Shown in pieces: positions 18,090-21,422 of a stretch of 64,000 nucleotides of DNA. The stretch covers positions 6,014,001 to 6,078,000 of the forward strand of contig NZ_CP108095.1 in the NCBI RefSeq assembly GCF_036194065.1. The letters are read 5' to 3'. Positions within the stretch are counted from its first letter, which is position 1, and every line of letters starts with the position of its first letter. The DNA comes from Streptomyces sp. NBC_00239 (GTDB taxonomy: Bacteria; Actinomycetota; Actinomycetes; Streptomycetales; Streptomycetaceae). The notes beneath the pieces were generated by a model, which did no database searches, was not told the DNA's origin, and saw only the letters and a list, made by a program, of their open reading frames with translations. The position numbers and the translations under genes were made by a program.

Positions 18090-20120
18090 ATGACGGCCGA
18101 GCTGGTGCGGGGGCAGAACCACCCGCTGCCGCACACGCGGGTGGAGATCCGGGTCTCGGCGGGCACTCCCGTGCTCGTCGGCGCCACCCTGGGCGACGAG
18201 CGGGGCCGGCTCCCCGGACCCGACTCGGTCGCCCATCCCGGCCGGCCGCAGCTCCCCGGGGCCGAGGTCCCGGCGGCCGTCGCCGCCGGGCAGCGGGTCA
18301 CGGTCGACCTCGACGCGGTCCCGGCGGCCGTGCACCGGATCGGGGTGCTGCTCGCGCTGCCCGCGGGCGGACCCGCCCGGTTCGGGGCGGTCCCCGCGCC
18401 GCACCTCGCGCTGCTGGGCGAGGACGGCGGCGACATCGCCGGCTTCACCCTCACGGGGCTCGACGCAGAGTCCGCGGTCGTCGGCTTCGAGCTGTACCGG
18501 CGCCAGGGCGCCTGGAAGGTGCGGGCGGTCGGCCAGGGGTACGCCGACGGGCTCGCGGGGCTCTTCGCCGACCAGGGGCTGCCGGCCCCGGCGGCGGCCG
18601 CCCTCGCCGCCGAGGCGCACGCGGCGGCCGTACCGTCTCCGCCCCGTCCCTCCACCCTGCCGGTCCCGGGCGGCTCGCCCGACGCGACCACGGCCACAGC
18701 CACGACCGCGACCGGAGCCGGTGGTGCGGGCCCGTCGGACGACGTGCCCGTCTCCGGCGTGCCGTACCCGGGCACACCGGGCCTGCCGGGTGCCTCGGGT
18801 ACGCCGGATGCCTCGGGTGCACCGGGCTTGCCGAGCGCCTCAGGAGTGCCCGGCACCTCGGGTACGCCGCTGTCCGGGGGCGGCATCAACTACGCGCATC
18901 CGCGCCGGGCACGGACCGAGGCGCCGCCCCCGGGGCCGGCGGTGCCCGCGGCCGGGCCGGGCGAGGCGCCGCCGCCGGTCGCCGGGGACGCCACCGGCTG
19001 GTCGATGGAGGAGCGCCTCCACAACCAGGTCTGGGGCATGTTCGAGGACGCGGCGCGCTCGGTCGCCGCCTACCGCAGCGCCGTCGACTTCGCCGAATCC
19101 CGCCTGGACCGCGAGCTGGACCAGGCGCTCTCGGACCCGCGGAGCCGGATCGGCGGCACCGGCGACGCCGCCCGCGACGCGGCCCGGGCCCGCCGTGACG
19201 AACTGGTGGCCCAGGCGGCCGCCGTACTCGACCGCGACCTGGACCGGCTGGCCGCCGAATCGGCGGTCGTCGAACCGGCCCTGCCCGCCGCCTTCGCACG
19301 CTGGGACGCGCCGCAGTGGCAGGACCACCGGCTGCCCGACGAGCGGCCGATGTCGCTCCGGCTCGGCGATCTGCACCTGCCCGAGCGGCCCGACCTGCGC
19401 ATCCCCATGCTGGTCCGGCTGCCGCTGGAGCGCGGTGTGTGGATCGACAGCGGCCGCACCGGCTCGGAGGCGGCGATGACGATGGACACCGCGCCGCTGC
19501 GCCGGCTCGCCCTGGACACCGCCGTCGCGCACGCCGTACGCCTGCTGGCCGTCCACCCGGCCGGCGGCTTCCGCGTACACGCCATCGACCCGGCCGGGGC
19601 CGGTGCGCAGGCCCTCGCGCCGCTGCGGCAGGCCGGGCTGCTCGCGGGTCCCGCCGCCGGCGGCGCCGACGGGGTCACCGAGCTGTTGGCCCGGCTCACC
19701 CGGCGGGTGGACCTGGTCCAGATGGCGGTGCGCGGAGGGGCGCCCGACTCGCTGCCGCCCGACCTCGACACCGCCGATCAGCTGCTGATCGTCCACGACT
19801 TCCCGCACGGGTTCGACGACCGCGCCGTCACACGGCTGCGCTACCTCGCGGACGAGGGGCCGGCGGTGGGCGTCCACCTGCTGATGGTCGCGGACCGCGA
19901 CGAGGCCTCGGCCTACGGGCCGCTGCTCGACCCGCTCTGGAAGTCGATGCTGCGGCTGTCGCCGGTGCCGGACGACCACCTCGCGGACCCCTGGGTGGGC
20001 CACGCCTGGACCTTCGAACCGAGCCTGCCCCCGTCGGGCGGCGCGGTCCTGGAGCGGGTGCTGGCCAGGATCGCGGAGCGCCCGGGCCCGGCCGGCCGGA
20101 GCTACGGCTACGGCCACTGA
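18090..20120 (+). CDS. TerD-like N-terminal domain fused to a degenerate FtsK-like domain
   Basis: A 676-residue multidomain protein. Residues 1-180 form a TerD-related beta sandwich (MTAELVRGQNHPLPHTRVEIRV; DIAGFTLTGLDAESAVVGFELYRR). A Pro/Gly/Ser linker (about 185-310) contains collagen-like PGTPGLPGASGTPDASG stretches. An Arg/Ala-rich helical region (310-415) comes next. The last 250 residues resemble the nucleotide-binding fold of FtsK/SpoIIIE-type ATPases, with a Walker-B-like strand ADQLLIVHDFPHGF and a following GVHLLMVADRDE strand, but I find no Walker A GK[ST]. ATG 18090 follows the first terD by 47 bp. Related large TerD proteins exist in Streptomyces; function unknown. The C-terminal assignment is by pattern only. 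Confidence 0.82.
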   Translation: MTAELVRGQNHPLPHTRVEIRVSAGTPVLVGATLGDERGRLPGPDSVAHPGRPQLPGAEVPAAVAAGQRVTVDLDAVPAAVHRIGVLLALPAGGPARFGAVPAPHLALLGEDGGDIAGFTLTGLDAESAVVGFELYRRQGAWKVRAVGQGYADGLAGLFADQGLPAPAAAALAAEAHAAAVPSPPRPSTLPVPGGSPDATTATATTATGAGGAGPSDDVPVSGVPYPGTPGLPGASGTPDASGAPGLPSASGVPGTSGTPLSGGGINYAHPRRARTEAPPPGPAVPAAGPGEAPPPVAGDATGWSMEERLHNQVWGMFEDAARSVAAYRSAVDFAESRLDRELDQALSDPRSRIGGTGDAARDAARARRDELVAQAAAVLDRDLDRLAAESAVVEPALPAAFARWDAPQWQDHRLPDERPMSLRLGDLHLPERPDLRIPMLVRLPLERGVWIDSGRTGSEAAMTMDTAPLRRLALDTAVAHAVRLLAVHPAGGFRVHAIDPAGAGAQALAPLRQAGLLAGPAAGGADGVTELLARLTRRVDLVQMAVRGGAPDSLPPDLDTADQLLIVHDFPHGFDDRAVTRLRYLADEGPAVGVHLLMVADRDEASAYGPLLDPLWKSMLRLSPVPDDHLADPWVGHAWTFEPSLPPSGGAVLERVLARIAERPGPAGRSYGYGH

Positions 20121-20240
20121 CCGCCCTGCGCCGAACACGCCCTCGACGGGACTCCGTCGGCCGCGCTCCTTTCCTCCGGCCCCCGCAGACCACTCCCTGA
20201 CCTGCCGATGACCGCCAGCTGACCTTTCTTTGGGCATCCC

Positions 20241-20270
20241 TTTACCTTTGGCGGTCTCTCCCGGTACTCT
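20241..20270 (+). promoter_or_regulatory. candidate vegetative promoter of terC
   Basis: TTTACC (20241-20246), an 18-bp spacer and TACTCT (20265-20270) sit in an unusually AT-rich patch. A start near 20277 would place the riboswitch at the very 5' end of the transcript, which supports the call. The 318-bp gap between the TerD fusion gene and terC is filled by about 100 bp of plain sequence, this promoter, the riboswitch and a leader ORF. Confidence 0.5.
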
Positions 20271-20274
20271 TATG

Positions 20275-20438
20275 TGTGCGGAGGGGAGTATTCCTGCTGT
20301 TTCTGCACGTCGTTCCCGTCAATACGGACCGCCATCGGTCCCGGGGCGGCGGCCCGCGGCCGATCGGCCGTCCGGGTGGAAGAGACCTCCGGCAGCGATG
20401 ACGCTGACCTTGAGCCATAGCGATCTGCCGGAGGCGTA
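20275..20438 (+). ncRNA. yybP-ykoY (manganese) riboswitch with SD-sequestering expression platform
   Basis: The conserved 5' element GGGGAGTA (20283-20290) and 3' element GAGACC (20382-20387) of the yybP-ykoY class are present, closed by P1 CGGAGG (20279-20284) with CCTCCG (20386-20391). A 6-bp hairpin GGACCG/CGGTCC (20326-20341) and a GC-rich stem fill the middle. CCTCCGGCAG (20386-20395) is also perfectly complementary to CTGCCGGAGG (20425-20434), which contains the terC Shine-Dalgarno. P1 and this helix share 20386-20391 and so exclude each other: with Mn2+ bound P1 would form and free the SD. Known family members control Mn exporters, including TerC-type proteins. The fold is drawn by eye. 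Confidence 0.82.
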
Positions 20439-20439
20439 A
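20398..20439 (+). CDS. possible 13-residue leader peptide coupled to terC
   Basis: ATG 20398 opens a 13-codon frame (MTLTLSHSDLPEA) whose TAA overlaps the terC ATG as TAATG. It lies inside the loop of the SD-sequestering helix. Ribosomes translating it would melt that helix and could reinitiate at terC. There is no convincing Shine-Dalgarno of its own, so it may be chance. Confidence 0.3.
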   Translation: MTLTLSHSDLPEA

Positions 20440-21422
20440 TGGACGTTTCGTTGACCCTTTGGGTGCTGACCATCTTGGGTCTGGGCATCCTCATCGGCGC
20501 CGATTTCTTCATCGGCCGCAAGCCGCACGACGTGTCGATCAAGGAAGCCGGCACCTGGACGGTCGTCTGGATCGTCCTCGCCGTCCTCTTCGGACTCGGC
20601 CTGCTGTTCTTCGGCAACAGCCAGGCGTCCGGCGAGTTCTTCGCCGGCTTCATCACCGAGAAGTCGCTGAGCGTCGACAACCTCTTCGTCTTCGTCCTGA
20701 TCATGGCGAAGTTCTCGGTCCCGTCCCACCTCCAGCAGCGCGTGCTGCTCGTGGGCGTCCTGATCGCCCTGGTACTGCGCGCGATCTTCATCGCGGCCGG
20801 CGCCGCGGTCATCGCCAACTTCTCCTGGATCTTCTACATCTTCGGCGCGTTCCTGATCTACACCGCCTGGAAGCTCATCCAGGAGGCGCGCTCCGACGAC
20901 GAGGAAGAGGAGTTCGAGGAGAACCGCCTCCTCAAGTCGGTCGAGAAGCGGTTCGGCGTCGCCGACCAGTACCACGGCACCAAGCTCTTCATCCAGAAGA
21001 ACGGCAAGCGCGTCCTGACCCCGCTGATGGTCGTCATGCTCGCCATCGGTACCACCGACGTGCTGTTCGCGCTGGACTCGATCCCGGCGATCTTCGGCCT
21101 CACCCAGGACCCGTACATCGTCTTCACCGCGAACGCCTTCGCGCTGATGGGCCTGCGACAGCTGTACTTCCTCATCGGCGGCCTGCTCAAGAAGCTGGTC
21201 CACCTCAGCTACGGCCTGTCGGTCATCCTCGGCTTCATCGGCGTCAAGCTCGTGCTGCACGCCCTGCACGAGAACGGGGTCGACGTCCCCGAGATCTCCA
21301 TCCCGTTCTCGCTCGCGGTCATCTGCGGCGTCCTGGTCATCACCACGATCACCAGCCTGATCGCCTCGAAGAAGCAGGCGGCGGCGGAAGCCGCCGAGGC
21401 CAAGGAGTCGGTCGAGGCCTGA
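20439..21422 (+). CDS. TerC-family integral membrane protein, probable Mn2+ exporter
   Basis: A 327-residue TerC/Alx-family membrane protein with about eight or nine hydrophobic segments. The family signature is EKSLSVDNLFVFVLIMAKF, with the membrane-embedded acidic residue, repeated as GTTDVLFALDSIPAIFG in the second half. An acidic cytoplasmic loop (SDDEEEEFEEN) separates the halves, and the tail is Ala/Glu-rich. Family members export manganese, and some work with exoenzyme metalation at the membrane. The ATG 20439 follows GGAGG at ideal distance; this SD is the target of the upstream riboswitch. It sits next to two TerD genes, but the riboswitch suggests separate, metal-dependent control. 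It ends in a 15-bp-stem terminator. Confidence 0.94.
   Translation: MDVSLTLWVLTILGLGILIGADFFIGRKPHDVSIKEAGTWTVVWIVLAVLFGLGLLFFGNSQASGEFFAGFITEKSLSVDNLFVFVLIMAKFSVPSHLQQRVLLVGVLIALVLRAIFIAAGAAVIANFSWIFYIFGAFLIYTAWKLIQEARSDDEEEEFEENRLLKSVEKRFGVADQYHGTKLFIQKNGKRVLTPLMVVMLAIGTTDVLFALDSIPAIFGLTQDPYIVFTANAFALMGLRQLYFLIGGLLKKLVHLSYGLSVILGFIGVKLVLHALHENGVDVPEISIPFSLAVICGVLVITTITSLIASKKQAAAEAAEAKESVEA

Follow-up and report, generated by a model that had tools for sequence, protein, structure and literature searches.

The terC locus and its leader

The window, which is the whole 64,000-nucleotide stretch of Streptomyces DNA analysed here, carries on its forward strand a gene for a membrane protein of the TerC/Alx family. 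The naming of this gene as terC in the initial annotation is borne out, as the product matches PF03741 (E 7.6e-53) and scores above the cut-off of TIGR03718 (R_switched_Alx; 380.7 bits with a cut-off of 246.4). By our reading, the name of the latter family seems to expect a switch of the kind described below. The protein is 41% identical to Escherichia coli Alx over 288 aligned positions, and a search for solved structures related to it by sequence returned none at E<=0.01. TerC proteins of Bacillus subtilis are described as metalating exported enzymes and as having minor efflux activity (PMC10550928). The preceding gene (window 18090-20117) includes part of a TerD domain (PF02342). Thus, terC adjoins a ter-type gene, yet it has a leader of its own. 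The features of this region are as follows, wherein R1 and R2 are two purpose-built covariance models.

20241..20270, + strand: likely promoter, with a putative -35-like TTTACC (20241-20246) and a putative -10-like TACTCT (20265-20270)
20276-20441, + strand: yybP-ykoY leader of terC (Alx subfamily), with the named motifs and both helices present
20276..20394, + strand: yybP-ykoY (Mn2+) aptamer, scoring 102.8 bits with R1, whose training set includes this window sequence, and 35.1 bits with R2
20279..20284, + strand: 5′ strand of P1.1, CGGAGG, identical to the core of the Shine-Dalgarno (SD) strand; P1 covaries across genera
20285..20290, + strand: 5′ side of L1, GGAGUA
20291..20294, + strand: 5′ strand of P1.2, UUCC, pairing with GGAA at 20378-20381
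20295..20307, + strand: rudimentary P2 of 3 base pairs, UGC/GCA (constrained fold)
20308-20313/20346-20351 and 20315-20318/20342-20345, + strand: P3 (covariation, constrained fold)
20319..20325, + strand: L3, the seven bases UCAAUAC, matching L3 of the class
20326-20330/20337-20341, + strand: P3.2, within the P3 region 20308..20351
20352..20377, + strand: P4, a variable hairpin (covariation, constrained fold)
20382..20387, + strand: GAGACC, comprising the 3′ side of L1 and the first two bases of the P1.1 3′ strand
20386..20395, + strand: switching strand, whose CCUCCG closes P1.1 with 20279-20284 and which as CCUCCGGCAG would be the OFF-state anti-SD
20393..20406, + strand: optional local hairpin CAGCG-AUGA-CGCUG, which excludes the outer end of the SD helix
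20425..20434, + strand: SD strand CUGCCGGAGG, complementary to 20386-20395
20439..21422, + strand: terC, 327 amino acids, ATG at 20439

All of the motifs named in the initial annotation are located where it had placed them. Positions obtained by script put GGGGAGTA at 20283-20290 and CCCGTCAATACGG at 20315-20327, each the sole plus-strand copy in the window; the latter is the L3 element of the class and is an addition to the earlier description. Also on the plus strand, CGGAGG is found twice (20279-20284 and 20429-20434), CCTCCG at 20386-20391 and GAGACC at 20382-20387, such that the two P1 strands proposed to join the L1 motif to GAGACC (20279-20284 and 20386-20391) can be assigned. Similarly, CCTCCGGCAG (20386-20395) and CTGCCGGAGG (20425-20434) form a perfect complement over the claimed 10 base pairs, with the SD sequence included.

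By itself this complement is weak evidence, because the two 10-mers occur three and two times on the plus strand of this G+C-rich window and because the whole leader folds no better than its shuffled versions (z -1.12; 34 of 200 shuffles did equally well or better). It is raised above chance by its conservation in 108 of the 110 best-scoring Streptomyces loci and by R1 matches in 180 of 296 genomes of the taxonomic class. A search for other Rfam families around the leader yielded nothing but four matches to small nucleolar-type RNAs, all below cut-off and on the opposite strand within terC, which we attribute to chance.

The initial annotation delimited the element as 20265..20441. A riboswitch element is indeed found there, but its 5′ boundary needs revision, as a TANNNT box, which likely serves as the -10 element, starts at 20265. 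Such a box starts 14 nucleotides 5′ of P1 in 101 of 108 Streptomyces leaders, where CTTTACC is also conserved; in the 64 loci sampled from the taxonomic class outside the genus, its spacing scatters. From the spacing within Streptomyces, the transcript probably begins at P1, with its 5′ end near 20276-20278, or about the first P1 base. A sigma-70 consensus scan around the leader was built for E. coli-like hexamers and, since it tests for these, it found no promoter. Upstream of the -10-like box, CTTT-rich repeats (window 20228-20250) with the pattern ctTT..c.ttc.CTTTACCTt are conserved in the 108 Streptomyces leaders and are candidates for a -35 element or an operator.

Aptamer architecture and the predicted Mn2+ site

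The consensus model of the aptamer draws on alignment A2, one of two alignments (A1 and A2) that contain 56 and 40 chosen sequences, respectively. In A2, 93.8% of the cells are paired and 17 of the 30 pairs exhibit double changes. Versions of the structure slid along the alignment reach at most 55.1% paired cells and at most 9 pairs with double changes, and none of 500 shuffles equalled the true register. Covariation is evident in P1.1, P1.2, P3 and P4. Exceptions occur in the outer, closing pair of P1.2, which is unpaired in 24 of the 40 sequences, and in some P3 pairs adjoining L3, which fail in 4 of the 40 where the alignment is poor.

The window carries the L1 motif GGGGAGUA together with GAGACC, closed by P1. 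Among the 64 loci of the taxonomic class outside the genus, GGGGAGTA is present in 62, and the partner segment reads GAGACC in 59, GAAGACC in 3 and GAGACT in 2. The presence of GGGGAGTA in the 108 Streptomyces leaders was demanded by the regular expression used to select them. By our own alignment, A20287 corresponds to the cross-helix A10 in the published crystal structures (PMC6754395, PMC9190785).

In L3, GUCANNNC is matched in 172 of 172 leaders (108 from Streptomyces and 64 from the taxonomic class; full pattern GUCANNNC(G/A)). The published L3 sequences are UCA41AU43UC in Lactococcus lactis and ACA48U49ACU52 in Xanthomonas oryzae, and the adenosine A41 or A48 of these loops contacts Mn2+ via N7 (PMC6754395). 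Because UCAAUAC aligns with these sequences free of gaps, A20321 corresponds, by our mapping, to the Mn2+-contacting adenosine.

P2 is limited to 3 base pairs in the window, which falls short of a P2 stem with a four-way junction, and reading the alignment by eye leaves no room for P2 in most aligned Streptomyces leaders. As a canonical class member with a three-way junction has been described (PMC9495176), we do not count P2 or the four-way junction as defining features.

The CAGCG hairpin just downstream of the aptamer is paired in 97.5% of the cells of A1 and is missing in locus L090. It is retained as optional only, since covariation for it in A1 is absent. The loop of this hairpin holds the ATG of a 13-codon ORF (20398-20439) that ends in TAATG on the terC start. 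This ORF was set aside because its ATG is replaced by ACG in most rows of A1.

Assignment to the yybP-ykoY class

The initial annotation had offered a search with the Rfam covariance model as the test on which its class assignment should stand or fall, and the match it expected is lacking. At its gathering score, RF00080 gives no match in the window, and it misses the leader even at E<=10 when applied to 401 bases. A search of the whole genome at E<=10 gives three matches, the best of 11.1 bits, and all of these are outside the leader. The control searches fail as well. At the loci of E. coli K-12 it scores mntP at 41.6 bits, below its cut-off of 45, and alx is missed at E<=0.1. The cut-off is passed in only 2 of 14 named control genomes, and L. 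lactis, from which a crystal structure of this riboswitch class was obtained, gives a match at E<=10 and none at E<=0.001. Given that the same model misses the known alx leader, we take its failure at terC to reflect a limit of the model, and negative Rfam results for the yybP-ykoY class deserve caution.

Two further models were therefore used, with E-values that are rough owing to a short calibration. R1 was built from 40 aptamers (33 from Streptomyces and 7 from other actinobacteria, three of the latter from genomes that also appear in the search of the taxonomic class) with a hand-drawn structure. With it, alx of E. coli scores 47.5 bits (E 6.4e-9), and mntP goes unreported at E<=10. The source of R2 is a set of 12 elements from 10 genomes, all in a single family that belongs to the phylum and lies outside the window's class. 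Its alignment, A4, comprises 12 of the 16 sequences of alignment A3, from which both E. coli leaders and loci L127 and L128 were left out, and its members are elements assigned by motif and known from their sequence. This independent model finds the window at 35.1 bits (E 1.1e-6), the best among 11 sources. It also recognizes E. coli mntP (23.1 bits, E 0.0013) and, weakly, alx (17.5 bits, E 0.036), as well as the remaining eight loci, the lowest of which is L090 (15.2 bits, E 0.14); the scores of alx and L090 are close to that of the next-best, chance match of R2 in the window (16.0 bits, E 0.089). With R1, the next-best match in the window has an E-value of 0.23.

The class assignment made in the initial annotation is thus upheld by the L1 and L3 motifs, by covariation in the aptamer, and by two models that connect the Streptomyces element to alx (R1) and elements elsewhere to both the window and mntP (R2). 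We conclude from these comparisons that the leader is a well-supported further member of the known yybP-ykoY riboswitch class, a membership that points to Mn2+ as its ligand.

Distribution

At E<=0.001, R1 matches 180 of 296 genomes of the taxonomic class, representing 70 of 114 genera and including 26 of the 28 listed Streptomyces genomes. RF00080, which like R1 was run on these genomes with stricter filters, passes its cut-off in none of the 296 and reaches E<=0.001 in 7. Of 396 genomes of the phylum, 26 contain a strict sequence pattern, and none contains the reversed pattern used as a control.

A TerC match is present in all 101 Streptomyces genomes. The element precedes 108 of the 110 best-scoring Streptomyces terC loci (96 distinct sequences), which are a non-random draw composed of 30 plus 80 best-scoring TerC loci (L001-L110). 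The regular expression that selected these 108 leaders requires (C/G)GGAGGGGAGTA, then GAGACC(T/C)(T/C)CGG, then a start codon, and therefore the invariance of P1 and much of that of the shared strand is partly built into this set. In the two single assemblies L062 and L096 (1300-1510 in each), terC is retained with a reduced leader in which all or most of the aptamer is gone: L062 keeps the P1-like ends and the SD helix while the aptamer body is lost, and L096 keeps the SD sequence in a short leader that lacks the aptamer body.

Outside the genus, 60 loci were hand-picked from the top of the R1 listing, passing over loci already in the set and apparent repeats of a genus, and four more were taken from the loci of that search. 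By tblastn, 60 of these 64 precede terC, which agrees with a position upstream of a manganese homeostasis gene.

Covariation of the two competing helices

The compensatory changes that the initial annotation sought across Streptomyces in both helices are found once for the SD helix and not at all for P1 among the 56 aligned leaders. P1 is invariant in this set, partly by selection, and so it yields no covariation within the genus. Eight base pairs of the SD helix are kept in 56 of 56 leaders, the only departures being a C-G to U-A replacement in L090, which is compensatory, and a single C-G to U-G. In the window the helix extends to a ninth and a tenth pair, which 24 and 30 of 55 leaders, respectively, retain. 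Within Streptomyces, both helices are therefore conserved yet almost untested by variation, and the evidence comes from other genera.

Among 60 terC leaders outside the genus, the SD helix, counted as uninterrupted pairing of the P1 3′ strand with the region 5′ of any in-frame start, has at least 7 base pairs in 45 and at least 6 in 50. Its mean length is 7.25 base pairs, versus 4.29 in shuffled leaders. Since any CCUCC fits any GGAGG, the SD regions of other loci are a fairer control. For 59 distinct loci, the fit to the SD region of the same locus averages 7.22 base pairs, compared with 5.69 (sd 0.15) when the regions are permuted, and the true value is not reached in any of 5000 permutations. 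In 47 of the 59 loci, the own fit is above the mean of the others. The effect is also seen in the 26 loci whose strand departs from CCUCCG: these fit their own region with 7.08 base pairs (17 of 26 with at least 7) and the SD regions of CCUCCG loci with 5.12. Examples of such locus-specific pairs are CCUUCGGC/GCCGAAGG, CCUCGAAC/GUUCGAGG and CUUUCGG/CCGAAAG.

A three-strand comparison was made for the 50 leaders preselected for an SD helix of at least 6 base pairs, a choice that affects every result here except the permutation test. In 6 of these leaders, the C at the fourth base, with G in both partner strands, is replaced by U with A in both; at the fifth base, G paired with C replaces C paired with G, also in 6. 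Across 28 substituted sites in the shared strand, pairing is preserved in P1 and the SD helix alike at 19 and in the SD helix alone at 9; some of the latter perhaps pair in P1 via bulges that the fixed register bars. Such co-change of P1 and the SD strand is what one would predict for a strand that two helices share. The weakest SD helices are found in 15 of the 60 leaders (fewer than 7 base pairs), only one of which rises to 7 in a wider register. The ten leaders with fewer than 6 base pairs probably use another platform.

Proposed mechanism and alternatives

We consider it highly probable that the leader is a Mn2+-sensing yybP-ykoY riboswitch that acts as a translational ON switch for terC. 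In this account we infer that Mn2+ is the ligand, where transcription starts, which way the switch responds and that it acts on translation. Transcription would start at about the first base of P1. The segment 20386-20395 (CCUCCGGCAG) would then have two mutually exclusive partners with the same core, namely CGGAGG at 20279-20284 and the SD CGGAGG at 20429-20434. When Mn2+ is scarce, the longer SD helix should win and hide the ribosome binding site, which would make OFF the default state. When Mn2+ is held between L1 and L3 by A20321, the docked aptamer and P1 would be stabilized, P1 would take up the CCUCCG strand, and the freed SD would permit TerC to be made at high Mn2+.

This switching logic, in which P1 and the SD helix compete for one strand, had been put forward in the initial annotation and gains support from the three-strand covariation outside Streptomyces. 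Predicted energies are -79.0 kcal/mol for the SD-helix state and -74.5 kcal/mol for the aptamer state, which favours OFF by about 4.5 kcal/mol without ligand. Forcing P1 alone is predicted to fold the whole conserved aptamer and to leave SD bases 20429-20432 mostly free (0.60-0.87), with 20428 staying at 0.24 and 20433-20434 at 0.01. No terminator-like site was found in 20200-20560. Mn2+ is reported to stabilize P1.1 in the X. oryzae riboswitch, and, for mntP, the 5′-UTR is reported to activate translation initiation in response to Mn. A default-OFF translational switch turned on by Mn2+ is therefore the simplest account.

An untranslated leader could expose the mRNA to Rho, and the same aptamer might act mainly on transcription, through intrinsic or Rho-dependent termination, with the SD helix as a by-product. 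The X. oryzae and L. lactis switches are indeed described as antiterminating with the same P1.1 3′ strand. We nevertheless regard this as improbable for terC, given that terminator-like sites are lacking in 20200-20560, that the SD lies within the competing helix, whose end is 4 nucleotides 5′ of the start codon and is not followed by a T-run, and that the SD strand covaries with P1 outside the genus. A comparably small chance attaches to the element being related to the class but responding naturally to something other than simply Mn2+, such as another divalent ion or pH. Most aligned Streptomyces leaders lack P2 and thus form a three-way junction, and E. coli alx is reported to respond to alkaline pH as well as to Mn; however, all of the published Mn2+-site positions that we could map (GG-A of L1, UCA...C of L3 and GAGACC) are kept in the window.

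It is very unlikely that the complementary 10-mers are a coincidence arising because a GGAGG SD always resembles the complement of CCUCC. Although any CCUCC does fit any GGAGG SD, fits to other loci average 5.7 base pairs, whereas the own-locus fits are longer at 7.22, a value as high as which arose in 0 of 5000 permutations, and the 26 loci lacking CCUCCG prefer their own SD region (7.08 versus 5.12 base pairs elsewhere).

The translational Mn2+ switch could also be part of a broader picture that we offer with considerable doubt. Mn2+ riboswitches whose junction is reduced to a three-way form might make up a large actinobacterial clade that is for the most part unannotated, and their P1 would duplicate the ribosome's own SD/anti-SD duplex, with its 5′ strand resembling an SD and its 3′ strand resembling an anti-SD. 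The aptamer, the SD and possibly 16S rRNA would then compete for one strand. In such a clade, the 5′-terminal SD copy may be a decoy or standby site, and the loss of P2 may have shifted metal affinity.

Comparison with known systems

The E. coli alx leader resembles that of the window in carrying GGGGAGUA, GAGACC and an L3 of UCAUUAC (UCAAUAC in the window), and the two genes belong to the same subfamily, TIGR03718. Its P1 strands, GCAAAGG/CCUUGC, include one bulge, and its strand AGACCUUGCC can, as read from the sequence, also pair downstream with GGCGAGGUCU. However, the alx leader is A+T-richer, with a long P4 and more structure between the aptamer and the start, and the competing strand in Streptomyces, unlike that of alx, is the SD itself. 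The L. lactis and X. oryzae structures, as described, share with the window L1, the invariable Mn-contacting adenosine of L3 and the P1.1 switch helix. They differ in having a four-way junction and in acting by transcription antitermination, whereas the Streptomyces elements mostly have a three-way junction and would act by SD occlusion.

Another described case is cg2157 (terC) of Corynebacterium glutamicum, which by its description is likewise an actinobacterial terC with a yybP-ykoY leader. This leader was predicted at 49.13 bits with RF00080 in the then-current Rfam, and its transcript was observed (PMC3890552). Therefore, the presence of the class 5′ of terC in actinobacteria was already known, although the earlier RF00080 predicted cg2157 whereas the Streptomyces element escapes the present one. 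The main text of an S. lividans reannotation reporting 22 Rfam elements mentions neither yybP, manganese nor terC, and the main texts of an S. avermitilis study and of a second S. lividans study mention neither yybP nor terC. The introduction of PMC8164766 states, citing other papers, that surveys in Corynebacterium and Streptomyces found yybP-ykoY, and for this reason we do not claim the Streptomyces element as unreported.

Implications and other associated genes

Secreted enzymes and antibiotics from Streptomyces are of wide interest, and the genus gains here a concrete candidate Mn2+ sensor on the gene for a conserved membrane protein. The counts for the taxonomic class (0 of 296 genomes with RF00080 versus 180 of 296 with R1) expose an annotation gap, and the way in which the three strands covary provides direct comparative support for a two-state switch. 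The leader is also short, which makes for an easy reporter and possibly a Mn2+-controlled expression part for Streptomyces.

The aptamer is located upstream of other genes in some loci. In L116 it precedes a P-type cation ATPase, and in L192 it precedes a PGPGW membrane protein and has its own matching SD pair, CCUUGUG/CACAAGG. In L118 (which is the same place as L169), L119, L171 and L179, all from one family, it precedes an orphan protein of about 280 amino acids. These orphan proteins are candidates for a new Mn-regulated family. For the representative in L179, Pfam gave no match at E<=0.01, and its sequence is identical to that of a Microbacterium protein which a database labels ‘cation-transporting ATPase’.
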